The notes below the pieces were generated by a model. That model had not been told where the DNA came from. It was given only the letters and a program-made list of their open reading frames with translations, and searched no databases. Positions 1,538 to 22,225 of a stretch of DNA of 64,000 nucleotides are shown here, piece by piece. The stretch lies in the IMG/VR virus record IMGVR_UViG_3300044825_001015, positions 1 to 64,000 of that record; one strand, given 5' to 3'. The translations under genes were made by a program, and so were the position numbers. This stretch comes from a virus. The first letter of the stretch is position 1, and every line of letters begins with the position of its first letter.

Positions 1538-2235
1538 TCGACCAAACTCAATGAATAAGGAAATGCTTCCTGCGCGAGCGACTTCATTGCAAGAGCATAT
1601 TCTGTAATTTCTTTCTGTGCATCATGGGCTAATCTCTGCTGAAGGAAGTGCATAATTCCATGAAGTGAGGTTGTCCACCTGTATCGCACATACATGCCAT
1701 ATGCAGGAAGGAATAATCTAGCCTGTTCTGCACATACACCAAGTTCCAGGGCGTTGTTGTATTCCTGTTCAGCGGCCTCAATTAAGTTGAATAATCTCAT
1801 GGTGAGTTCTATCCCTAGACCGTAATTAATTGGATCTCCTGATCCCTGCTTAGAGTTCTCAGGGGCACTTCTCCAGTCTTCCGCCGTGGGGATATAGAAG
1901 GCGGGTTCCTCTGTGATGTATCTGCGTGACGACTCATTCCATCCGTTCTGATCATCTACGAATGTGGAAGCAACCGCATACTTCCAATGTTGTCGTGCTA
2001 CCATAAGTGGCGCATAAATCTCAAAAGAAAGTACACAATGTCTGAATGGTGAGGTATGTTCTTCTTTCCAAAGGAAGTCAATCAGTTTCTTATCTTTAGT
2101 TTTCAAAAGACCAGTCATATCTAATTCACTTCTTTTATCAAAGGAGACTCTAGCAGCATTAGCAACTTCTAAATCATCTCCCATAGTTGAAACTAAGCCT
2201 ACATAACCTAGATTCAAAACATCAATCTTCTTCAT
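1534..2235 (-). CDS. thyX: Flavin-dependent thymidylate synthase ThyX
   Basis: 233 aa, within the usual ThyX length. ThyX methylates dUMP to dTMP using methylenetetrahydrofolate, FAD and NADPH. Seen: HTSPFRH at 60-66, the signature region R81 to Y106 (RQHWKYAVAS followed by WNESSRRY), which contains an insertion relative to the short RHRxxSxNxxSxRY form, then EQARLFLP at 170-177 and a C-terminal helix QQRLAHDAQKEI. Phage ThyX proteins often carry such an expanded signature. The start overlaps the upstream gene by 14 nt. Together with the class II reductase it gives the phage its own dTTP supply. Confidence 0.95.
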   Translation of the reverse strand: MKKIDVLNLGYVGLVSTMGDDLEVANAARVSFDKRSELDMTGLLKTKDKKLIDFLWKEEHTSPFRHCVLSFEIYAPLMVARQHWKYAVASTFVDDQNGWNESSRRYITEEPAFYIPTAEDWRSAPENSKQGSGDPINYGLGIELTMRLFNLIEAAEQEYNNALELGVCAEQARLFLPAYGMYVRYRWTTSLHGIMHFLQQRLAHDAQKEITEYALAMKSLAQEAFPYSLSLVE

Positions 2236-2464
2236 CGATTTCCAATTCTTCTAAAATAAACTCAATATTGTTATATAACTCTAATCCTGGATATAACTTA
2301 AAATTACAGTCAAGACAGTATAAGTATATGATATCGTTATCATCTTCATCAATCCATAGACGAGGAACCAACATCGGATGTTCTGGATCGATTCCACAGG
2401 GGATTGGTAGTACTTTATCTTTTAAAGCATATTGATAATATTTACTAAATACTCTTATGTCCAT
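2222..2464 (-). CDS. Small phage protein with putative metal-binding cysteines
   Basis: 80 aa, first gene of the leftward thyX operon, about 32 nt downstream of the predicted start of transcription. A CGIDPEHP segment near residue 23 and a YCLDCNF (CxxC) pair give three cysteines plus a histidine, perhaps a small zinc site. The C-terminus is acidic (EELEIDEED) and overlaps the thyX start. The SD is a weak AAAGAAAG. No named family recognised. Confidence 0.6.
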   Translation of the reverse strand: MDIRVFSKYYQYALKDKVLPIPCGIDPEHPMLVPRLWIDEDDNDIIYLYCLDCNFKLYPGLELYNNIEFILEELEIDEED

Positions 2465-2501
2465 ATTGTTTCTTTCTTTATATATTGCAATTGTACATAT
2501 G

Positions 2502-2510
2502 ATCTTACCA
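2502..2510 (-). promoter_or_regulatory. Leftward extended -10 promoter for the thyX operon
   Basis: Minus strand TGG-TAAGAT (2510-2502), an extended -10 of the TGnTAnnnT type; the identical 9-mer precedes the gene at 26886. Transcription would start near 2495, about 30 nt upstream of the first ATG at 2464. No clear -35 is seen. Confidence 0.5.
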
Positions 2511-2544
2511 TAACTCTAATATTAAAAATGTGACTTAGCGCACA

Positions 2545-2573
2545 TAGACACTTTATTACTGTAATGCTATACT
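2545..2573 (+). promoter_or_regulatory. Rightward promoter, probably leaderless
   Basis: TAGACA (2545-2550), 17-nt spacer, then TGC-TATACT (2565-2573). Exactly 6 nt follow the -10 before the ATG at 2580, so the predicted first transcribed base is the A of the start codon. No SD is present. It is divergent from the thyX promoter. Confidence 0.65.
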
Positions 2574-2579
2574 TTTGAC

Positions 2580-3596
2580 ATGCATATCTCTTTTTCAACT
2601 GCCGCCGAAAACATGTCTAGACTTCCAGATGATAGAAAAGACTACATGGGCTATAGCCATGCTTCATATGAGATTATCAAAACTTTAAAGCACTTTGGTA
2701 TAGAGTCTTCAATCTTAGATAGATCATGTCCAATAGGAATATCTATGGGATTCCCAACTGATTATAAGTTTTTTCCAAATCAATACCGTATTGGTTACAC
2801 CGCTTGGGAATCAACAGAGTTAAGAGATATGTGGCTAGAAAGAATGCTTGCCGTTAATGAACTATGGGCAACATCAACTTGGACAGCAGAAGTATTTAAG
2901 AACACTACTGGTAGAGAAGATATTCACGTTTTCCCGCATGGCATTAGCGAGGACTGGAAACCTGTAAAAAGAAATGTTTCAGAAACATTTAGATTCCTTC
3001 ATGTTGGAGAGCCGCAGGCTAGAAAGAATGGTCAACTAGTTGTAGATTCGTTCATAGAACTTTTTGGGAACGATAATAAATTTCAATTAGTGATGAAGTG
3101 CAGTAATATCAATACAACCAGAGTTTATCTTCCAGATGGAAGCATTGCAGGAAGTCCAGATTCAAGATACAGAAATATATTGCTAATACCTGATTCATTC
3201 TCTCATGAAAAGATGATTCAATTATTCCACAAGACACATGCTATGGTATATCCAACAATGGGCGAGGGCTTTGGATTTATCCCGCTTCAGGCTTTGGCAA
3301 CTGGTATGCCAACTGCTACTACATATGATTGGGCAGAGTATAAAGAATATATAACAGTACCAATTAAATCTAAACTATCTGAATCTGAGTATCCACAACT
3401 TCATCCAGGAAAAGTTTTTAATGTAACTAAGGAAGATGTTAAAAAGTCCATGATTGATTTAGTAAACAATTATGATAAATATCAACTTCAGGCATACAAA
3501 AACTCTTTTAAAATACACATGGATTTTGACTGGAAAAAAGTAACTCATCCAACTGCTGAAAAAATAAAAAATATTTTAAAAATTCGCGGTTTTTGA
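2580..3596 (+). CDS. Glycosyltransferase, GT4-like
   Basis: 338 aa with the two-Rossmann (GT-B) look of glycosyltransferase family 4. Seen: TAWESTELRDMW in the N-terminal half, NELWATSTWTAEVF (93-106), FPHGI (118-122), a Rossmann start FRFLHVGEPQARKN (137-150), then VYPTMGEGFGFIPLQALATG. In GT4 enzymes the EGFG stretch carries the EX7E motif; here it reads E229-x7-Q237, a variation. Such enzymes transfer a sugar from a nucleotide donor. The acceptor is unknown: host envelope polymer, phage protein or modified DNA are all possible. Start chosen by the promoter, which predicts a leaderless mRNA. Confidence 0.85.
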   Translation: MHISFSTAAENMSRLPDDRKDYMGYSHASYEIIKTLKHFGIESSILDRSCPIGISMGFPTDYKFFPNQYRIGYTAWESTELRDMWLERMLAVNELWATSTWTAEVFKNTTGREDIHVFPHGISEDWKPVKRNVSETFRFLHVGEPQARKNGQLVVDSFIELFGNDNKFQLVMKCSNINTTRVYLPDGSIAGSPDSRYRNILLIPDSFSHEKMIQLFHKTHAMVYPTMGEGFGFIPLQALATGMPTATTYDWAEYKEYITVPIKSKLSESEYPQLHPGKVFNVTKEDVKKSMIDLVNNYDKYQLQAYKNSFKIHMDFDWKKVTHPTAEKIKNILKIRGF

Positions 3597-3605
3597 TTCC
3601 GCAAA

Positions 3606-3614
3606 TGATACTAT
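3606..3614 (+). promoter_or_regulatory. Extended -10 promoter for the reductase gene
   Basis: TGA-TACTAT in the 66-nt gap after the glycosyltransferase. Transcription would start near 3621, giving a leader of about 40 nt that contains a small hairpin (GCCCA 3635-3639 / TGGGC 3645-3649) immediately before the AGGGAG SD at 3651-3656. The hairpin might limit access to the SD. Confidence 0.45.
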
Positions 3615-3662
3615 AGAGATTATCTAAATTTATTGCCCACATGTTGGGCCAGGGAGAATTGT

Positions 3663-5594
3663 ATGTCACAAGGTATTGATAACCACTATGAAAACTTTAT
3701 TGCTTTAAGCCGTTATGCTAGATGGCTTTCTGATGAAAATCGCCGCGAAACTTGGGGTGAAACTGTAGATAGATATTTCACTTTTATGCGTATGCATCTA
3801 AGAGAAGAGTGCGGTTACGAGCCTTCTGAAGATCTTATTTCAGAGTTAAGAGAGGCTGTTTTCAATAGAAATGTCATGCCTTCAATGCGAGCAATCATGA
3901 CTTCTGGCCCAGCACTAGAGAGGGACAATGTGGCAGGATATAACTGCTCATTCCTACCAGTAGATAGCCTTAGATCCTTTGACGAGGCAATGTACATTCT
4001 TATGTGCGGTACTGGTGTTGGATTCTCTGTAGAGAGTGTATATGTCGATAAACTTCCTACTATTAACGAACATTTTGAGCCTACAAATACCACTATTGTC
4101 GTAGAAGACTCTAAGGCTGGATGGGCTAAGGCATTAAGAGAACTGCTCGCATTATTGTGGCAAGGACAGGTTCCAACATGGGACGTTTCTAAGGTTAGGC
4201 CAGCAGGGGCAAGACTAAAGACTTTTGGGGGTCGTGCATCTGGTCCAGAGCCACTAGTTCAGTTGTTCGATTTTTGCGTAAACATAATTAAGGGTGCAGC
4301 AGGAAGAAAATTAAGACCTTTAGAGGCACATGATATTATGTGTAAGATTGGAGAAGTAGTTGTAGTTGGAGGCGTTCGTCGTTCTGCTATGATTTCACTT
4401 TCTGATCTTAATGATCATGATATGGCCCGTGCAAAGCACGGTGCATGGTGGGAGTATAACTCACAACGGGCACTATCAAATAACTCTGTTGCATACTCAG
4501 GTCGTCCAAGCATGTCTGATTTTATGTCAGAGTGGAAGAACCTTTACGAAAGCAAGTCTGGCGAGCGCGGAATTTATAATGTAGGTGCTGCTCAGGGTCA
4601 GGCCGCTAAGTATGGACGCAGAGATCCAGAAATAAGATACGGAACAAATCCATGCTCTGAAATCATTCTCCGACCATATCAATTCTGTAATCTATCAGAG
4701 GTAGTTGTTAGGCCAAACGATACAGAAAAGACATTAATGCGTAAGGTAGAACTTGCAACGATCCTTGGAACTTGGCAGTCAACTCTTACTAATTTCAAGT
4801 ATTTAAGAAAGATTTGGAAGGATAACACAGAAGAAGAAAGACTTCTTGGAGTTTCCATAACTGGGCAATTTGGAAATAAGTTAATGTCTGGTCAAGAAGG
4901 ATTAGTCAAACTTAGTAATGTGTTAAATAACTTGAGACTACATGCTGTAAAGGTTAATGAAGAAGAGGCCAAGGTTCTTGGAATTAATCCTTCCGCAGCC
5001 ATTACATGTGTTAAGCCTTCTGGAACAGTTTCTCAGTTAACAGGTGTTTCTTCTGGTATGCATCCATGGCATAACGATTACTACATTCGTACTGTCCGTG
5101 GAGACAAGAAAGATCCTCTGACTAACTTCCTCGTCGATGCTGGAATACCAGCAGAAGATGATGTTATGAAGCCAAATGACACTACTGTATTCTCATTCCC
5201 AATTAAGGCTCCAGATAATGCTGTATTAAGAAATGATTTATCAGCAGTAGAGCATCTAGATATTTGGCTAACTTATCAGCGTGCATGGTGCGAGCATAAG
5301 CCATCAATTACTGTTTCTGTTAAAGAAGATGAGTGGATGGACGTTGGGGCGTGGGTCTGGAAAAATTTTGATGAAGTTTCTGGTATTTCATTCTTGCCAT
5401 ACTCAGATCATACCTACAAGCAGGCACCATATCAAGATACTACTAAGGAAGAGTACGAAGAACTTCTTGCTAAGATGCCAAAAGATATTCGTTGGTCTGA
5501 CATGGTATTCTATGAAACAGAGGATGGTACTAAAGGATCTCAGGAACTTGCTTGTAGTGCAGATACTGGGTGTGAAATTGTTGACATAGGATAA
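3663..5594 (+). CDS. nrdJ: Class II (adenosylcobalamin-dependent) ribonucleoside-triphosphate reductase, monomeric type
   Basis: 643 aa from ATG 3663 (SD AGGGAG 6 nt upstream); a TTG 30 nt further up is unlikely. Class II reductases make dNTPs through a thiyl radical generated with adenosylcobalamin, independent of oxygen. Compared with the Lactobacillus leichmannii enzyme I see the thiyl cysteine C331 in GTNPCSEI with E333, and the reducing pair C95 (GYNCSF) and C342 (11 residues after C331, the same spacing as in that enzyme). A C-terminal pair C-x5-C (ACSADTGCEI) can relay electrons. No separate activating subunit is needed. The host must supply B12 coenzyme. It pairs functionally with thyX. 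Confidence 0.93.
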   Translation: MSQGIDNHYENFIALSRYARWLSDENRRETWGETVDRYFTFMRMHLREECGYEPSEDLISELREAVFNRNVMPSMRAIMTSGPALERDNVAGYNCSFLPVDSLRSFDEAMYILMCGTGVGFSVESVYVDKLPTINEHFEPTNTTIVVEDSKAGWAKALRELLALLWQGQVPTWDVSKVRPAGARLKTFGGRASGPEPLVQLFDFCVNIIKGAAGRKLRPLEAHDIMCKIGEVVVVGGVRRSAMISLSDLNDHDMARAKHGAWWEYNSQRALSNNSVAYSGRPSMSDFMSEWKNLYESKSGERGIYNVGAAQGQAAKYGRRDPEIRYGTNPCSEIILRPYQFCNLSEVVVRPNDTEKTLMRKVELATILGTWQSTLTNFKYLRKIWKDNTEEERLLGVSITGQFGNKLMSGQEGLVKLSNVLNNLRLHAVKVNEEEAKVLGINPSAAITCVKPSGTVSQLTGVSSGMHPWHNDYYIRTVRGDKKDPLTNFLVDAGIPAEDDVMKPNDTTVFSFPIKAPDNAVLRNDLSAVEHLDIWLTYQRAWCEHKPSITVSVKEDEWMDVGAWVWKNFDEVSGISFLPYSDHTYKQAPYQDTTKEEYEELLAKMPKDIRWSDMVFYETEDGTKGSQELACSADTGCEIVDIG

Positions 5595-5595
5595 A

Positions 5596-6222
5596 ATGTA
5601 TAAAGATTTAAAAATCATAGAAAATTTTATTGATTTAGAAAGATGTAGATCATTATCCAATGAACTGAGAAAGCAAATTATTTATAATAGCAATACTAAT
5701 TCTAAATCTTTATTTCCTGGAAATGGATTCTATCTTATAGATAAAGATTTGAAAGAATTAATGCCATTAACTAAAGATTCTATGATTAGTGTTGGCTACC
5801 TTAAATATGGAATATCAAAAGAAATAAATGATTTTAACGAAAATATTTTTAACTGTATAAAAGATATTCAAAAAGAGGTAGAATTATTTTTTAATAAAAA
5901 TATTAGTGTGGTCCACGGTGGATATCATTTAATGTGTCCAGGATCAAATAATAATATACATAGAGATGAATATTTGCCATCTAAAGATGGTGCTATGAAT
6001 TATGTAGTTTCTCACTCAGCACTTTTATATTTAAATTCTAACGAAGAAGATTATTCTGGAGGAGAGATTGTTTTTCCAGAAAAAAGCATTAGTTTAAAAA
6101 CCAAAGCAGGAACTTTAATAATTTTTACTGCACAGGAGCCACATGGCGTTACAGAAGTTCTTACTGGTTTGAGAGATGTAATAATATTGTTTTTCCTAAC
6201 TGTAGATGATATACTTAATTAG
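5596..6222 (+). CDS. 2-oxoglutarate/Fe(II)-dependent oxygenase
   Basis: 208 aa, prolyl-4-hydroxylase-like double-stranded beta-helix. The iron triad is visible as H122-x-D124 (IHRDEY) and H183 (EPHGV), with R193 ten residues later to hold 2-oxoglutarate. GGEIVFPEKSISLKTKAGTL is the usual strand pattern between the iron ligands. The ATG follows the reductase stop by 1 nt, with GGAT as a weak SD. This copy is more A+T-rich and diverged than the three in the fibre locus and is the only one with Arg at the cosubstrate position. The substrate is unknown: protein side chain, nucleotide or DNA base. Confidence 0.88.
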   Translation: MYKDLKIIENFIDLERCRSLSNELRKQIIYNSNTNSKSLFPGNGFYLIDKDLKELMPLTKDSMISVGYLKYGISKEINDFNENIFNCIKDIQKEVELFFNKNISVVHGGYHLMCPGSNNNIHRDEYLPSKDGAMNYVVSHSALLYLNSNEEDYSGGEIVFPEKSISLKTKAGTLIIFTAQEPHGVTEVLTGLRDVIILFFLTVDDILN

Positions 6223-6583: not shown

Positions 6584-7514
6584 TCTCAATCCATCCTCAT
6601 GGGAACTCAGACAGGCTCTACTTGATTATGGAGTAGATGTTAACTTTTATAAAGGCTGGGATACAATAGGAAGGCCATGGAAGGGTCCAGATAATTCCCC
6701 AGGTCTTATGGGTGGAGTAATTCATCACACCGCCAACCCAAATGCTCGCCCAGGAAACATTAATAATATTCTAGGTTGGGCAGTAACAGCATACGATAAG
6801 CCAGTATGCAATATGCTTATTGGCAAAGCCCCAGGAGAATCTTTCTTGCTCGCCGCAGGATCAGTTTATCATTGCGGATTGGGAGGGCCAGTCCCAGCAC
6901 TAGGTGTTCCATCACATGGATTCTTTGGTCAAACTAGACTGTTTGGAATAGAAATCGATGATCCTGGAGTTAAGGTTGGAACAATTACAGATTATCAAAT
7001 TGAAAATACTTCAAAAACTATGGCAGCATTAGCAGATTTATCTGGATGGGATATTGACAAAGCAATAGGTACTCATAAGTGCTATACAGATGGATGCCAT
7101 GGATGGAATCCAAAGGGACCGTCCCCAAGTGTTGGAAGAAAAAACGACACTATTGATGGTCCATGGGCAAGTTATCCAGGAAATTCAAATCCAGAGCCTT
7201 ATAATGCTCCATGGTGGAGAGAAAAGATTAAGGGTGTTTCTGGTAAAAATACTTGGGATGGAACTATTCCAACACAATCAGCAGCATTAAGAGCAGCAAC
7301 AGAAGGTCTTAAGAATAAGGCTGCATGGAGAGTTGCTTCTAGACTTTATGATATTGGAGTCAGAGAAAGGGAGGCTCTTCCATTAGGTGAACAAGAGTAT
7401 CCTTTAAGAGCAATGAAGAGATATCAAGAACAAATAGGAATAAAGCCAGAACGCCGTGACGGATTGCCAAATAAAACAACATGGATTAAATTATTTGGCT
7501 CAAGCAAGCCATAA
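6576..7514 (+). CDS. Endolysin, N-acetylmuramoyl-L-alanine amidase
   Basis: 312 aa from ATG 6576, preceded by GAGGTG at 9 nt; a GTG 12 nt upstream is less likely. Amidases of this type cut between N-acetylmuramic acid and L-Ala of peptidoglycan. Seen: zinc-site residues H50-H51 in VIHHTAN, E126 in FGIEID, H167 (GTHKCYTDGCHG, with C174/H175) and a GRKND motif at 187-191. This is the amidase_2 arrangement. A C-terminal domain from about 235 to 308 (SRLYDIGV to TTWIKLFG) resembles a peptidoglycan-binding helical domain. A paralogous catalytic domain occurs in the tail protein at 46665. A terminator follows. Confidence 0.88.
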   Translation: MANLNPSSWELRQALLDYGVDVNFYKGWDTIGRPWKGPDNSPGLMGGVIHHTANPNARPGNINNILGWAVTAYDKPVCNMLIGKAPGESFLLAAGSVYHCGLGGPVPALGVPSHGFFGQTRLFGIEIDDPGVKVGTITDYQIENTSKTMAALADLSGWDIDKAIGTHKCYTDGCHGWNPKGPSPSVGRKNDTIDGPWASYPGNSNPEPYNAPWWREKIKGVSGKNTWDGTIPTQSAALRAATEGLKNKAAWRVASRLYDIGVREREALPLGEQEYPLRAMKRYQEQIGIKPERRDGLPNKTTWIKLFGSSKP

Positions 7515-7952: not shown

Positions 7953-8344
7953 CAGTAGTTGAAGTTACTGAGAATAAAGTAGTAGTATCAGCCGTTGGTC
8001 TTCAAGGTCCAAGGGGAAGAGGTATTTTAAATGGTACAGGCGCTCCTCCAAATTCTTTAGGAATTGATGGAGACTTTTATATAGATACAAATCTAAATAA
8101 AATTTATGGTCCCAAAACAAATGGTGACTGGCCTGAAGCCGTTAACCTAGGAGGAACATATGTTCATGTTCAAGGAACTCCATCAGCAACCTGGACAATA
8201 AATCACAATCTTGATTTCTACCCTAGTGTTGAAATTGTTAATTCTGCTGGGGTAGCAGTAATAGGTGATTATGAGTATTTAAATACAAATACAATAGTTG
8301 CTAGATTTACAGATCCTTTCGCTGGAAAGGCATATTTATCATGA
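7949..8344 (+). CDS. Tail fibre/adhesin protein
   Basis: 131 aa, ATGA-coupled to the gene before. A short beta N-terminus leads to GLQGPRGRGI, a brief collagen-like GxY segment often used as a trimeric connector in phage fibres, then GDFYIDTNLNKIYGP, typical of fibre repeats. The C-terminus (WTINHNLDFYPSVEIV) is a small beta domain seen at fibre ends. Probably a short trimeric fibre; function inferred. Confidence 0.6.
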   Translation: MTVVEVTENKVVVSAVGLQGPRGRGILNGTGAPPNSLGIDGDFYIDTNLNKIYGPKTNGDWPEAVNLGGTYVHVQGTPSATWTINHNLDFYPSVEIVNSAGVAVIGDYEYLNTNTIVARFTDPFAGKAYLS

Positions 8345-8359
8345 GAGGTGGAATAGAAA

Positions 8360-9412
8360 ATGGCTAAGAGATTCTTAGTTAGTTTAGACCTCGGCACCAA
8401 TGAATTGCAGAATGCCGTAATTCAGAATTTGCCTGCGGCTTCAGAGCCATCTGGCGTAAAGGGTCGGGTCTACTTTGATTCAACTAATAATAAGTTGAAA
8501 GTTTACGATGGTACAACATGGCAACCATTGGCATTCGGTGCTAATGCAGCATCAACAGTTACATTGCAAGGAGATGTTGCTGGTACTGCAAATGTAAGTA
8601 ATGGTGTTATCACAATTGATACTACCATTCAGGCAAATTCAGTTGCATTGGGTACAGATACAACAGGAAACTACCTTATAGATCTTTCTGCTGGAACTGG
8701 TGTTACTGTAACACATACACAAGGAGAAGGCTCTACAGCAACAGTTGCAATTGGTCAAGCAGTAGCGACCACAGATTCACCAACATTTGCTGGTCTTACT
8801 TCTAGCGGTGATGTAGCAGTTAATGGTGGGGATCTTACAACAACATCTACCACCGCTTCACTATTTAATGCAAATGCAACTACATTAAATATTGGTGGAG
8901 CAGCAACAACACTATCAATAGGAGCAGCAACTGGTACAACTACGGTAAATAACAATCTTGTTGTTACTGGAAACCTTACTGTTGATGGAACTACCACAGT
9001 ATTGAATACCGCGACACTTGAGGTAGAAGACAATGTTGTTCTTCTGAACAAGGGTGTTACTGGAGTACCTTCATTAAATGCTGGTCTAGAAGTTGAAAGA
9101 GGAGACTCTGCTAACGTATCCATACTTTGGAACGAAACTCTAGATTCATGGTCATTTACTAATGATGGAACAACATACTACAACATGGTTCGCAAGTTTG
9201 CTTCTGATCTTACTGGTGACGGAGCAACAAGTGCATTTACTGTAACTCACGGACTAGGAACTAGAGATGTGCAAGTTGAAGTTTACGATGCTGCATCTCC
9301 ATACGACTGTATAGTAGTTGATGTTGAAAGAACATCTACTTCTGCAGTAACTGTGAGATTCGCAACTGCTCCAGTTATTGGAGTAAATTATAGGGTAGTA
9401 GTAGTAGGATAG
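8360..9412 (+). CDS. Tail fibre protein
   Basis: 350 aa with SD GAGAGGTGG. N-terminal MAKRFLVSLDLGTNELQNAV, then GRVYFDSTNNKLKVYDGTTW, a motif common in fibre N-terminal regions. The centre is Gly/Thr/Ala-rich and repetitive (LNIGGAATTLSIGAATGTTT, NNNLVVTGNLTVDGTTTVLN), the triple-beta-spiral-like pattern known from long tail fibres of T4-like cyanophages. The last 90 residues (SDLTGDGATSAFTVTHGLGT onward) form a small beta domain comparable to the end of the protein at 7949. Role: adsorption, by composition and location. Confidence 0.75.
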   Translation: MAKRFLVSLDLGTNELQNAVIQNLPAASEPSGVKGRVYFDSTNNKLKVYDGTTWQPLAFGANAASTVTLQGDVAGTANVSNGVITIDTTIQANSVALGTDTTGNYLIDLSAGTGVTVTHTQGEGSTATVAIGQAVATTDSPTFAGLTSSGDVAVNGGDLTTTSTTASLFNANATTLNIGGAATTLSIGAATGTTTVNNNLVVTGNLTVDGTTTVLNTATLEVEDNVVLLNKGVTGVPSLNAGLEVERGDSANVSILWNETLDSWSFTNDGTTYYNMVRKFASDLTGDGATSAFTVTHGLGTRDVQVEVYDAASPYDCIVVDVERTSTSAVTVRFATAPVIGVNYRVVVVG

Positions 9413-11125: not shown

Positions 11126-11157
11126 AAAACTATCAAATCCTGGGGAGAGTGAACTGG

Positions 11158-11694
11158 GTGCCCGACAAGAATTTTAAAGTCAAGAATGCCCTTGAATTAG
11201 GAACCGCGTCGATTGTGACGCCTGGTGGGACTCTATCATTACCAAGTTCAACAGATACTGTTGTGGGCAGGGCGACAAGTGATATTTTAAGCAATAAGAC
11301 TTTACAAAGCGTAGAAGAAATAACTACTATATCAGCCATCGCAGCAACGGGAACTATAAACTTTGATGCAGTTACTTCATCGATGTTATATTACACATCT
11401 AATTCAACTGCTAACTGGACATTAAATGTTAGAGGAAATTCTGGCACTACACTTAATTCTATCCTTCCAGTAGGAAGTTCATTAACAATAGTTTTTATGG
11501 CTACTAATGGTACTACCGCATACTATCAAACTGGGTTTCAAATAGATGGAGCATCTCAAACTTTGAGATGGCAAGGAGGATCTGCTCCAACTGAAGGAAC
11601 TGCTTCTGCTATAGATGTATATTCATTCTCTATAACAAAAACTGCAGCAACTCCAACATATGTAGTATTGGCAAGTGTGGCAGGTTTTGCGTAA
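11158..11694 (+). CDS. Fibre-end protein, first paralogue
   Basis: 178 aa. I use the GTG at 11158, with SD GGGGAGAG 8 nt before it; a GTG at 11149 would overlap that SD. Starts VPDKNFKVKNALELG. The C-terminal 130 residues (YYTSNSTANWTLNVRGNS to TYVVLASVAGFA) match the gene at 19932 (YYVNNSSANWTFNFRASD to TFVVLGSFARFA), clearly a duplicated gene. The next gene starts within its stop (TAATG), also as in the second copy. Probably the terminal or connector domain of a fibre; its exact role is not known. Confidence 0.7.
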   Translation: MPDKNFKVKNALELGTASIVTPGGTLSLPSSTDTVVGRATSDILSNKTLQSVEEITTISAIAATGTINFDAVTSSMLYYTSNSTANWTLNVRGNSGTTLNSILPVGSSLTIVFMATNGTTAYYQTGFQIDGASQTLRWQGGSAPTEGTASAIDVYSFSITKTAATPTYVVLASVAGFA

Positions 11695-12809
11695 TGCCAT
11701 TAATGTCATCCCGTGCGGGAGGCTCTGCAAGAGCATTTGGATTGACAATCCTATCAGCGCTTACCCTTGTCCTTGAAACATTTAATAGGTCTGACCAGTC
11801 TGGTCTTGGTTCGGTTCGCGGTCAAAGATGGAGAGTCTTACGAGGAGTATGGTCAATTGTTGGGAATAAAGCCCTATCTTCAACTGCTGCTGGAGACAAT
11901 GCTTTAGCAACATTAAGATTTACTAAAACAGACGTTACAATTAGTGTATCTGGTGCAGATCCAGGAGTAGGAGCAGCATTCTGGGTTACAGATGCAAATA
12001 ATTGGTATGCTTCTGTTTATACTCAAACAGAAACATGTCAAACATGTTCAAATTGTAATTCTTTTAGTGGTGGTAATTGTGCTGCTGCCACCCCAGGAAA
12101 TTGTAATGCATTTACTCCAGGAACTTGTAATCAAAATGCTACAGGAAATTGTGCGAATGGAACATTCTGCTGTGCAGCGCCGACGCCAGGAACGTGTATT
12201 TCTTTTACATGCCTAGGTGGATTTACCCCAGGAAACTGTAAAGTATTTAATAGTGCTAATACAGGAAATAGAAATCCACCCTTCGGATTTTGCCACGCAC
12301 CATTAGGATTCAACCCTCCAACATGTAATACTTCTATAGTTTGTGCAAATAGCAACCCTCCAACATGTAATGCTGGTCAATGTTGTAACGGAAATTTCCC
12401 TACATGGTCGCCATATTGTGCTGGATTTTTTAATTCTCCTACTTGCCCACCAATAAACTTTAACGCACCAGTTTGTAATTCATTTAATCCAGTAGTTTGT
12501 AATGCATTTTTTACATTTTCCTGCAACTGTACTACTGAACATAGAATTTCAATACTCAGGTCTTTAGCGGGTACAGTTTCTAATATAAGCAATAATTTAT
12601 TTAGTGCAGCAATACAATCATTTAGAGTAATACTTTCTGGAAACCAGGCTACAATACAATCATTTTCAACTGCTTCTTATACATCTCAAATAGGAAATTC
12701 AGTTGTGCAATCTATAACTAGTCCACAAAAAACAACTCAGCATGGTATAATTAAGTCTACTTCAAGTTTTCAGCAAGGAACATCAATAAACGAATTCGGA
12801 GTAAATTGA
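11694..12809 (+). CDS. ConA/LamG-like virion protein with a 24-cysteine insert
   Basis: 371 aa, TAATG-coupled to the gene before. Residues about 30-110 (LETFNRSDQSGLG to NNWYASVYTQ) and about 285-371 (HRISILRSLAG to EFGVN) together look like one jelly-roll domain of the concanavalin/LamG type. Between them lies a segment of roughly 170 residues containing 24 cysteines in short repeats such as TPGNCN, PPTCN and GNCANG, rich in Asn, Pro, Thr and Phe. The insert may be a disulphide- or metal-stabilised spike. The MPLMSSRAGG start resembles the MPFISKFSGH start at 20564. Adhesin role inferred. Confidence 0.65.
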   Translation: MPLMSSRAGGSARAFGLTILSALTLVLETFNRSDQSGLGSVRGQRWRVLRGVWSIVGNKALSSTAAGDNALATLRFTKTDVTISVSGADPGVGAAFWVTDANNWYASVYTQTETCQTCSNCNSFSGGNCAAATPGNCNAFTPGTCNQNATGNCANGTFCCAAPTPGTCISFTCLGGFTPGNCKVFNSANTGNRNPPFGFCHAPLGFNPPTCNTSIVCANSNPPTCNAGQCCNGNFPTWSPYCAGFFNSPTCPPINFNAPVCNSFNPVVCNAFFTFSCNCTTEHRISILRSLAGTVSNISNNLFSAAIQSFRVILSGNQATIQSFSTASYTSQIGNSVVQSITSPQKTTQHGIIKSTSSFQQGTSINEFGVN

Positions 12810-13102
12810 TGAAAAAAAGAGATACTTATAAATCATATTTAATTAAAAAAATATTAGGCGTAGACACTACATACTACAAGCCTAACCCAAAATTTACTAG
12901 ATCAGATCAAGTTCCTATGCATCTTGCACTAGTAATTGATGGGGTAGTTGAAGATATAATTCATTGTGACGAAAGACTTGGCTATATATTATTAAGCAAT
13001 CCAGATATTATTGATATAAAAGATAAATTTAGAAAAGTTAATATATCTGATATATATGATGAAGAATCGAACACTTTTTCTAAGGAAGTAAAAAATGTCT
13101 GA
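12809..13102 (+). CDS. Small protein, paralogue of the 13327 gene
   Basis: 97 aa, ATG overlapping the previous stop (TGATG). Core motif LALVIDGVVEDIIHCDERLG followed by ILLSNPDIIDI. The gene at 13327 has the same core (LAFVIDGKVERVMRFDEANA, FLSNPNVIDI). Short proteins with this VIDG...SNP.xxDI pattern occur in tail regions of other environmental phages, to my memory including cyanophages. Function unknown. Confidence 0.6.
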   Translation: MKKRDTYKSYLIKKILGVDTTYYKPNPKFTRSDQVPMHLALVIDGVVEDIIHCDERLGYILLSNPDIIDIKDKFRKVNISDIYDEESNTFSKEVKNV

Positions 13103-13334
13103 AAGGCAAGTAAGACCATGGGATCTTTTTAATAAAAAAATGGGTAGAGTAGACAATGAAACCTATAAAAAAAGATTAGAAATTTGTCAAACATGCCCTG
13201 AATTAATAAAAACTACATTTCAATGTAAAAAGTGTGGATGCTTTATGAAACAAAAAAATAAATTAGCAGATGCAAGTTGCCCGCTAAAAAAGTGGGGAGT
13301 TCATAAGATAGAGGAGGTGTCAACAAATGAATGA
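13095..13334 (+). CDS. Zinc-ribbon protein
   Basis: 79 aa, SD AAGGAAG. Two CxxC pairs: C32-x2-C35 (EICQTCPE) and C45-x2-C48 (QCKKCGC), plus C50 and a later cysteine (DASCPLKKW). The segment RLEICQTCPE...CGCFMKQK is a recurrent small zinc-ribbon found near phage structural genes. It sits between the two VIDG/SNP paralogues with 8-nt overlaps on both sides, so the three are co-translated. Role unknown; perhaps assembly or metal handling. Confidence 0.65.
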   Translation: MSERQVRPWDLFNKKMGRVDNETYKKRLEICQTCPELIKTTFQCKKCGCFMKQKNKLADASCPLKKWGVHKIEEVSTNE

Positions 13335-13530
13335 AAGAGTTTTAGCATTTGTCATTGATGGTAAGGTAGAAAGAGTCATGAGATTTGATGAAGCCAATGC
13401 TGCTATTTTCTTATCAAATCCTAATGTCATTGATATAACAGATGTTCAAGTGACTGAATCATGGAATTACGATCCATCAAAGGGATTTTATGCAGATATA
13501 GACGGAACAGAACTGGTTATTCCTAAATGA
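13327..13530 (+). CDS. Small protein, paralogue of the 12809 gene
   Basis: 67 aa with a very strong SD (GAGGAGGTG). Shares the VIDGxVE...DE...FLSNPNVIDI core with the protein at 12809 but is 30 residues shorter and has a different C-terminus (WNYDPSKGFYADIDG). Ends in an ATGA overlap with the next gene. Function unknown. Confidence 0.6.
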   Translation: MNERVLAFVIDGKVERVMRFDEANAAIFLSNPNVIDITDVQVTESWNYDPSKGFYADIDGTELVIPK

Positions 13531-15044: not shown

Positions 15045-15641
15045 GTGGCTATTGAAATATTCCCAGGAGCAGTACAATTCGATTTTTCTAAATCTTTAGC
15101 AAAAGAAATAATTAAGCAAGCAGAAAAATCTAAGTATCCATGGATGGACTCAGCAGTAGGAACGGGGTCTGGTTCTATTGCTAAACATGTTCGATCCAGC
15201 CTATCCCTTGGACTAGATGCCCTAGAAATATCACAAAAAGAAGTAAGACCATACATTTATGAATGTGTAAAACAATATACATCATATTATGATGTAGAGG
15301 TTACAAAAGATGACGGACTTACTCTGCTAAAGTATGAATCTTATGATAAATATCAATTTCATATTGATTATGGTCCAGGTAATTATAGAGAAGTATCATG
15401 TTTAATTTATCTTAATCCAGGTGAATATGAAGGTGGAGGAACAACATTTAAGCATTTTAATTACACTATACAGCCAGAAGAACCTACACTAGTTCTTTTC
15501 CCTTCAAACTACCCATATTTGCACGCAGCAGAACCAGTATCTAAAGGGAGAAAGTATATAATAGTAACATGGATGACAAATCAAATAGATAATATGATGA
15601 CGCATGGATCTGCATGTTCATGTGGGCTTAATCATTTATAA
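15045..15641 (+). CDS. 2-oxoglutarate/Fe(II) oxygenase, fibre-locus copy 1
   Basis: 198 aa, GTG start with SD TAGGAGA. Prolyl-4-hydroxylase-like: H106-x-D108 (FHIDYG), H160 (YLHAAEPV), K170 ten residues later for 2-oxoglutarate, and the GEYEGGGTTFKHFNYTIQPE strand pair. The C-terminus carries two cysteines (GSACSCGLNHL). Closes the first accessory cassette after two DUF6065-like genes. A hydroxylase acting on fibre proteins or host surface peptides is possible but unproven. Confidence 0.88.
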   Translation: MAIEIFPGAVQFDFSKSLAKEIIKQAEKSKYPWMDSAVGTGSGSIAKHVRSSLSLGLDALEISQKEVRPYIYECVKQYTSYYDVEVTKDDGLTLLKYESYDKYQFHIDYGPGNYREVSCLIYLNPGEYEGGGTTFKHFNYTIQPEEPTLVLFPSNYPYLHAAEPVSKGRKYIIVTWMTNQIDNMMTHGSACSCGLNHL

Positions 15642-21496: not shown

Positions 21497-22225
21497 ATGA
21501 ATGAGTGGCTTGATAAGTCTCGTGAAGAGACTGATACTAGGCGTATGCCAGATAAATATTTAGACGAAATTATTGTATCCAACCCAGCATTAGGAATTAA
21601 TGTATATAGAAATGCTATACCTAAAGATTCATGTAAAAAAACTATATCAACTTTAGAAAAGGTTCTTAACTCTACTGGTCCTTATAGTTGGCAGCCAGCA
21701 AATGTTACTGAATCTGATGACCCGTTATTAGAGGCAAGATACTGTGTTGATTTTAAAATTGGTCAAAAAAATCTAGGTGAAGTAAATCAATATAATAAAA
21801 AATTGTATGAATTACATGAAGACATATTCCAGTATGTCTATAAGTGTTCTGTAGATTATGGAAGATACTGGGGTGTCGGACTGAACTACTTTGAGGTATT
21901 TAATTTTGTTAGATATGAAAGTCCTGGTCAACACTTTAATATTCATGCAGATCATGGACCAGCATATGTAACAACAATATCTGCAGTAGCATACTTAAAT
22001 GATGACTATGAAGGTGGAGAGTTATATTTCCCTAGATTTAATTTAACAATAAAGCCAGAGGCTGGAGATATAGTATTTTTCCCATCTACATTTATTTATG
22101 AGCATTCATCTGAGCCAATGATATCTGGAACTAAATATTCAGTAGTTATAATGACTGATTATAATTCTAGAGGTGGTCTTAGGTATTACCCATACAGACA
22201 AAATGAAGAAACTTTAATTTATTAG
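21497..22225 (+). CDS. 2-oxoglutarate/Fe(II) oxygenase, fibre-locus copy 2
   Basis: 242 aa. Iron ligands H150-x-D152 (FNIHADHG) and H203 (YEHSSEP), cosubstrate lysine K213 ten residues later, and the DDYEGGELYFPRFNLTIKPEAGD strand pair typical of prolyl-4-hydroxylase-type enzymes. Weak SD (AAAGAAAG). The C-terminal part adds a Tyr/Arg-rich tail (GGLRYYPYRQNEE). Closely related to the next gene, so a tandem duplication is likely. Confidence 0.88.
   Translation: MNEWLDKSREETDTRRMPDKYLDEIIVSNPALGINVYRNAIPKDSCKKTISTLEKVLNSTGPYSWQPANVTESDDPLLEARYCVDFKIGQKNLGEVNQYNKKLYELHEDIFQYVYKCSVDYGRYWGVGLNYFEVFNFVRYESPGQHFNIHADHGPAYVTTISAVAYLNDDYEGGELYFPRFNLTIKPEAGDIVFFPSTFIYEHSSEPMISGTKYSVVIMTDYNSRGGLRYYPYRQNEETLIY

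Follow-up and report, generated by a model that had tools for sequence, protein, structure and literature searches.

The window, by which we mean the whole 64,000-nucleotide stretch analysed here (positions 1 to 64,000 of IMG/VR record IMGVR_UViG_3300044825_001015), belongs to a 104,844-base virus contig that carries portal, head protease, capsid and tape-measure genes. No sheath gene was found among the genes tested in this 105-kb record, and the presence of head and tape-measure genes without one points to a siphovirus-like phage. The record also contains a WhiB gene (PF02467, E 1e-16; L053 16746-16976, minus strand), a marker used to recognize phages of actinobacterial hosts (PMC6802176, PMC10202952), which makes an actinobacterial host probable. 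An origin among T4-like cyanophages was considered and dropped in view of the tape measure, the HK97-type head genes and WhiB; the match that had supported it is to a single shared fibre-block protein. Elsewhere in the window, a 653-residue open reading frame at 3633-5594 matches class II ribonucleotide reductase domains only in part and may be divergent or incomplete.

The gene of interest encodes a 371-residue protein (Table 1) and is located in a fibre block between the endolysin and portal genes, with tail-fibre-like genes on both sides and the portal, head protease, capsid and tape-measure genes downstream. Given this neighbourhood, the protein is likely to be a component of the virion.

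Table 1. Coordinates and supporting evidence for the Cys-insert protein gene, its parts and its immediate neighbours in the window
Feature	Position	Strand	Basis
Upstream neighbour with phrog_5906 C-terminal fibre domain	11149..11694	+	PHROG match
Cys-insert beta-sandwich protein gene, 371 aa	11694..12809	+	Intact ORF; flanks and insert both under purifying selection; start overlapping the upstream gene's stop
First half of predicted ConA/LamG-like beta-sandwich, residues 25-114, with invariant WVTDAxN strand	11766..12035	+	AF2 pLDDT ~90-97; W97-A101 invariant in alignments
Insert, ascending arm, C115-C182, 12 Cys	12036..12239	+	Cys count
Central Cys-free tip KVFNSANTGNRNPPFGF, residues 183-199	12240..12290	+	Common to L001-L003; putative distal tip
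Insert, descending arm, C200-C279, 12 Cys	12291..12530	+	Cys count
Second half of predicted beta-sandwich, residues 280-371	12531..12806	+	AF2 pLDDT 92-97; HMM matches in 71 relatives
Small downstream protein	12806..13102	+	No Pfam/PHROG match above cut-off
DUF6171 (PF19668) six-Cys protein with PWDLFNK motif	13095..13334	+	Pfam match

Parts of this arrangement recur at the loci of relatives (described below). In the loci examined the family gene is often preceded by a fibre protein, and a C-terminus of the phrog_5906 type is found in the proteins directly upstream of the family genes at six other loci (L001, L005, L059, L063, L065 and L177), suggesting that the phrog_5906 neighbour is a partner of the Cys-insert protein. 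At L022, the fibre protein upstream of the family gene (2135-4087) bears CBM5/12 modules. Locus L012 has two tandem family genes, each followed by a small protein of the type found directly downstream in the window, an arrangement which suggests that the small protein is possibly a dedicated partner or chaperone. Related-looking small proteins (VIDGxV...DERLAAILLSNP) are encoded not only directly downstream of the window gene but again at 13327-13530, and in L012 at 6958-7299 and 8307-8591. At 41 of 65 family loci a protein of the DUF6171 type, recognized by PWD[LI]FN, is encoded no more than 2.6 kb downstream. Three genes for 2OG-Fe(II) oxygenases (PF13640) surround the fibre block of the window (5596-6222, 15045-15641 and 21497-22225); prolyl hydroxylation of the insert by these enzymes was considered and set aside, as the Pro content of inserts ranges from 1 to 19. 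A glutaredoxin (PF00462) was sought as a phage redox partner and none was found.

All 24 Cys residues of the window protein fall within residues 115-279 (nt 12036-12530) and none in its flanks, bearing out the first-pass annotation, which had drawn attention to 24 cysteines in a single insert. This segment has a Cys density of 14.5%, compared with 1.0% for the other open reading frames of the 105-kb record and 0.5% (69 Cys in 14,995 residues) over the other frames of the structural block; the probability of at least 24 Cys in 165 residues is ~1e-20, and the next-densest stretch of 165 residues in the record's other open reading frames has 10. The repeats that the annotation had listed are present, as one TPGNCN (with four TPGxC in all), two PPTCN and one GNCANG. 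The segment is in frame, and comparison with the relative L001 gives a dN/dS of 0.11 for the insert and 0.13 for the flanks, values that reflect purifying selection. In the same comparison, 20 aligned Cys pairs are kept, seven of them with a TGT/TGC change, against one case of Cys aligned with another residue.

To characterize the base of the protein we used AF2 models. For the window protein, the flanks form one beta-sandwich with pLDDT of 90-97, whereas the insert has pLDDT below 50 and no confident fold; strands 103-115 and 279-291 flank it, in agreement with the earlier description of an insert between two strands of one jelly roll. A more complete model was obtained for L078 (mean pLDDT 81), in which an 18-residue strand (106-123) and a 16-residue strand (204-219) continue the sandwich as a beta-ribbon that carries small modules and a tip beyond it. 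This model matches CBM66 (TM by target 0.63), GH43 C-terminal sandwiches, lectins and the central fibre of mycobacteriophage Douge, with E-values for PDB matches all above 0.001 (best 3e-3), and it matches annotated tail proteins (minor tail proteins of Gordonia and Arthrobacter phages) with E-values down to 1e-5. Since the PDB E-values exceed 0.001, we assign the base to the ConA-like lectin/LamG beta-sandwiches by its predicted fold, not by sequence.

A search for homologous inserts, which the first-pass annotation had proposed, uncovered a family. Loci were collected from IMG/VR scans, in which the window is L051, and from these environmental viral contigs HMMs of the two flanks extracted 71 distinct proteins in which both are present, counting that of the window. 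Every one has a Cys-rich insert at the equivalent site, 63 to 262 residues long, hypervariable in sequence and containing 4 to 28 Cys; the flanks are conserved, with W97, D100, A101 and G351 invariant. The family crosses tail types, as there is a sheath gene at the L008 locus and a baseplate wedge gene at the L150 locus. Querying 50,697 records of cultured phages with the window protein, either whole or as its N-terminal flank, and with two relatives turned up no member, the best result being a single marginal Aeromonas match (E 0.8), nor did a scan of GTDB genomes yield a relative. Searches of Pfam, PHROG and PDB sequences placed the window protein in no family, and PHROG gave no match to known fibre-tip families of the T-even gp38 type. 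Some members are deposited in UniProt/BFVD as uncharacterized proteins of uncultured Caudovirales, with neither function nor architecture assigned; one of them, A0A6J5MLT4, is 69% identical to L078 over its whole length.

The first-pass annotation had considered that homologues lacking conserved cysteines would speak against a role for them. Single Cys positions are indeed not conserved across the family; what is conserved is that their number is even. This holds for 71 of 71 inserts, with 13 different counts, while for the other residues that average at least two per insert an even count occurs in 39-59% of inserts. Sampling is not independent, many members having been recovered from related metagenomes; evenness is retained among 53, 36, 17 and 9 representatives with flank identity below 90, 70, 50 and 40%, respectively. 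Parsimony on a tree of the flanks requires at least 30 changes of Cys count, all of them in even steps, for which the probability would be ~2^-30 if odd and even steps were equally likely, a rough figure as the tree is approximate. Parity is a property of the insert and not universally of the whole protein, as the C-terminal flank contributes one extra Cys in six of the 71 relatives.

The simplest cause of such evenness would be complete disulphide pairing, and the counts strongly support the idea that all Cys of the insert are paired in this way. The earlier suggestion had been that the insert binds metals or forms disulphides, and the two halves of that suggestion fare differently. If, in the manner of zinc ribbons or metallothioneins, the Cys served as ligands of Zn, Cu or Fe-S within the reducing cytoplasm, one could account for the very high Cys density, for the occurrence of CxC, CC and CxxC in inserts and perhaps for the six-Cys DUF6171 protein encoded downstream. 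However, metal clusters do not demand universal evenness, and 28 of the 71 counts equal 2 modulo 4, so they do not come in the fours of Cys4 zinc sites; the Cys spacing in the main clade is mostly 5 or 8 residues rather than that of clustered CxxC pairs, His and acidic residues are scarce in the window insert, and the arms are matched across the tip. We regard metal binding as very unlikely.

Evenness could also arise by duplication of units with two Cys, and a functionless expansion of repeats by slippage would then explain both the repetitive arms and the counts. Such duplication may account for evenness in some clades, such as that of L087, with its near-perfect long repeats of four Cys per unit. 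Five inserts, those of the window, L058, L059, L145 and L177, have one Cys per repeat unit; duplication alone would not keep parity with such units, yet parity holds and the arms match. Furthermore, aligned Cys are kept through synonymous codon changes while their surroundings vary. For these reasons, functionless expansion appears extremely unlikely.

How the Cys might be paired is suggested by the organization of the insert into two arms. In the window clade, the tip can be set by a Cys-free motif (NSANTGNRNPPFG; WNNTAPKG in L058 and WSSANKN in L059), and the seven members have 12/12 (the window), 11/11, 11/11, 8/8, 11/11, 12/12 and, in one case, 13/11 Cys per arm. If all Cys are paired, arms with equal but odd numbers, such as 11/11, imply bonds across the arms. 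Equal splits obtained from scoring of mirror spacing partly reflect the scoring itself and were excluded as evidence. The spacing itself is mirrored in some relatives: counted from the tip, both arms of L059 have the spacings 8,8,5,5,6,5,5,5,7 (p ~1e-4), with nine matches in mirror order versus three in direct order, while L058 matches at 9 of 10 positions (p 0.0005-0.02) and L145 at 7 of 8 (p 0.003 before correction). Among the 41 relatives with at least 12 Cys to which this test was applied, only L059 and L058 survive correction, and for the window insert the mirror spacing is not significant (p 0.12). In addition, a [TV]FCCA-like element and a CCNGxxxxWSPY element occupy opposite arms at similar distances from the tip; L002 has them on the reverse arms compared with L001, L003 and the window, an exchange that is expected if the two face each other. 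The very regular family member L177 (3001-3849) has CYQT repeats going up and CNPYN repeats coming down, with six Cys on each arm and two at the tip. Collectively, the equal arms and the mirrored spacing of relatives support an arrangement in which the pairs of the window clade would mostly be cross-arm rungs of an antiparallel ladder, an arrangement that we extend to the window protein itself. Other clades, of the CPSGGTLSGTTC type, probably pair within modules and not across arms.

The tips show a different kind of variation. L023 and L026 have flanks that are 100% and 98% identical and nearly identical arms, but different tips, and L041, with flanks 87-88% identical to theirs, has a third. 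The L041 tip is in turn 66% identical to those of L157 and L174 (z ~16 versus shuffles), whose C-terminal flanks are only 27-28% identical to its own, and there is also a resemblance between the tip of L023 and those of L177 and L159. With every exchange the total number of Cys stays even. Going by these comparisons, tips appear to be exchangeable cassettes, with the same tip recurring on distant scaffolds. For two pairs, dN/dS is elevated in the insert (0.82 for L023/L026 and 0.74 for L161/L163) relative to their own flanks (0.15-0.17, with 0.15 for L023/L026); other pairs are under purifying selection throughout. Diversification by a DGR, as for Mtd, was rejected as there is no reverse transcriptase (RVT_1) in the 105-kb record, which may itself be incomplete.

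This exchange bears on what the insert is for. The first-pass annotation had envisaged a rigid spike, and the notion of a stalk-like projection agrees with the equal and partly mirrored arms and with the model of L078, whereas a tip that is an exchangeable cassette suggests a role in specificity and not in piercing. The disulphides might merely harden a fibre element or cross-link subunits, the insert making no contact with a receptor. Equal arms would suit a stiff rod, and the virion of Agrobacterium phage Milano owes its mechanical stability to disulphides, losing it with DTT (PMC10491603). However, a part with a purely mechanical role would not be expected to be hypervariable or to exchange its tips while the scaffold stays constant, and even counts within each insert favour closure within the insert over bonds between subunits, leaving this explanation unlikely. 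Milano also qualifies the earlier remark that high Cys content is rare in tailed-phage virions, which is correct as a generalization: it is a precedent for a tailed-phage virion rich in closed disulphides despite cytoplasmic assembly, although its bonds are mostly stabilizing cross-links between subunits and not part of a hypervariable finger within one chain, and the pairing in our family is deduced from sequence.

We consider it probable that the window protein is a phage tail or fibre adhesin with a disulphide-zipped stalk and a swappable binding tip. The ConA/LamG-like beta-sandwich would serve as the base, from which two adjacent strands would extend into a long two-armed finger whose Cys would be fully paired, the resulting ladder holding up the distal tip (residues ~183-199 in the window protein). 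The tip would most likely contact the host surface. Because tailed phages assemble in the reducing cytoplasm, closure of the disulphides would probably be delayed until lysis or later, in oxic water. A role in adhesion is supported by the fibre and tail genes nearby and by the similarity in fold to lectins, CBM66, the Douge central fibre and minor tail proteins of actinophages. Glycan binding is common among ConA-like bases, and in lake water the variable finger could instead attach to particles, polysaccharide, other cells or antagonists; the location in a fibre cluster and the exchange of cassettes are better explained by host recognition, and we judge such a non-receptor role to be quite unlikely.

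Both the base and the adhesin role are of known kinds. Minor tail proteins and fibres of actinophages (Gordonia phage Beenie, Arthrobacter phage GurgleFerb and gp20 of mycobacteriophage Douge) resemble the family in predicted base fold and tail location, and CBM66 and GH43 C-terminal sandwiches resemble it in predicted base fold, but identity in these structural matches is 10-14% and we know of no hypervariable Cys-paired insert in actinophage ConA/LamG-like tail proteins or in CBM66/GH43 sandwiches. For the finger, the nearest working analogue is the ultralong CDR H3 of bovine antibodies, in which a beta-ribbon stalk on a beta-sandwich bears a variable disulphide knob with a preference for even Cys numbers (PMC7366855, PMC6440498). 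The bovine germline segment IGHD8-2, which starts SCPDGYSYGYGC, even resembles the phage tips CPGGYTYHGIC of L078/L113, a matter of convergence only: the two systems are not homologous, and diversity is generated by somatic mutation in the cow and by viral evolution and cassette exchange in the phages. The tip adhesins of T-even tail fibres (gp38; PMC12892980) likewise present hypervariable specificity loops on a conserved scaffold, but do so with glycine-rich PGII helices. No description of such a phage protein, or of any phage counterpart of a disulphide-paired, tip-swapping finger, came to light in the open-access literature.

A more far-reaching proposal is that these proteins constitute a family of freshwater phage adhesins in which a constant sandwich and a disulphide-laddered ribbon present exchangeable even-Cys knobs that fold only after release, in the presence of oxygen. 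We put this forward tentatively, as a possibility that may well prove too strong. If true, release itself would switch the adhesin on, the problem of variable recognition would have been solved as in the cow antibody, and the family would be an undescribed and widespread one among freshwater phages.

Phage receptor-binding proteins are normally poor in Cys, a consequence of virion assembly in a reducing cytoplasm. That a whole family has kept its Cys numbers even while the count changed at least 30 times indicates that in some phages a hypervariable part depends on closed disulphides, and the timing of disulphide formation in virions becomes testable with this family. The family also represents a natural library of disulphide-constrained binders, and offers a handle on the host range of phages that infect abundant, hard-to-culture lake bacteria.
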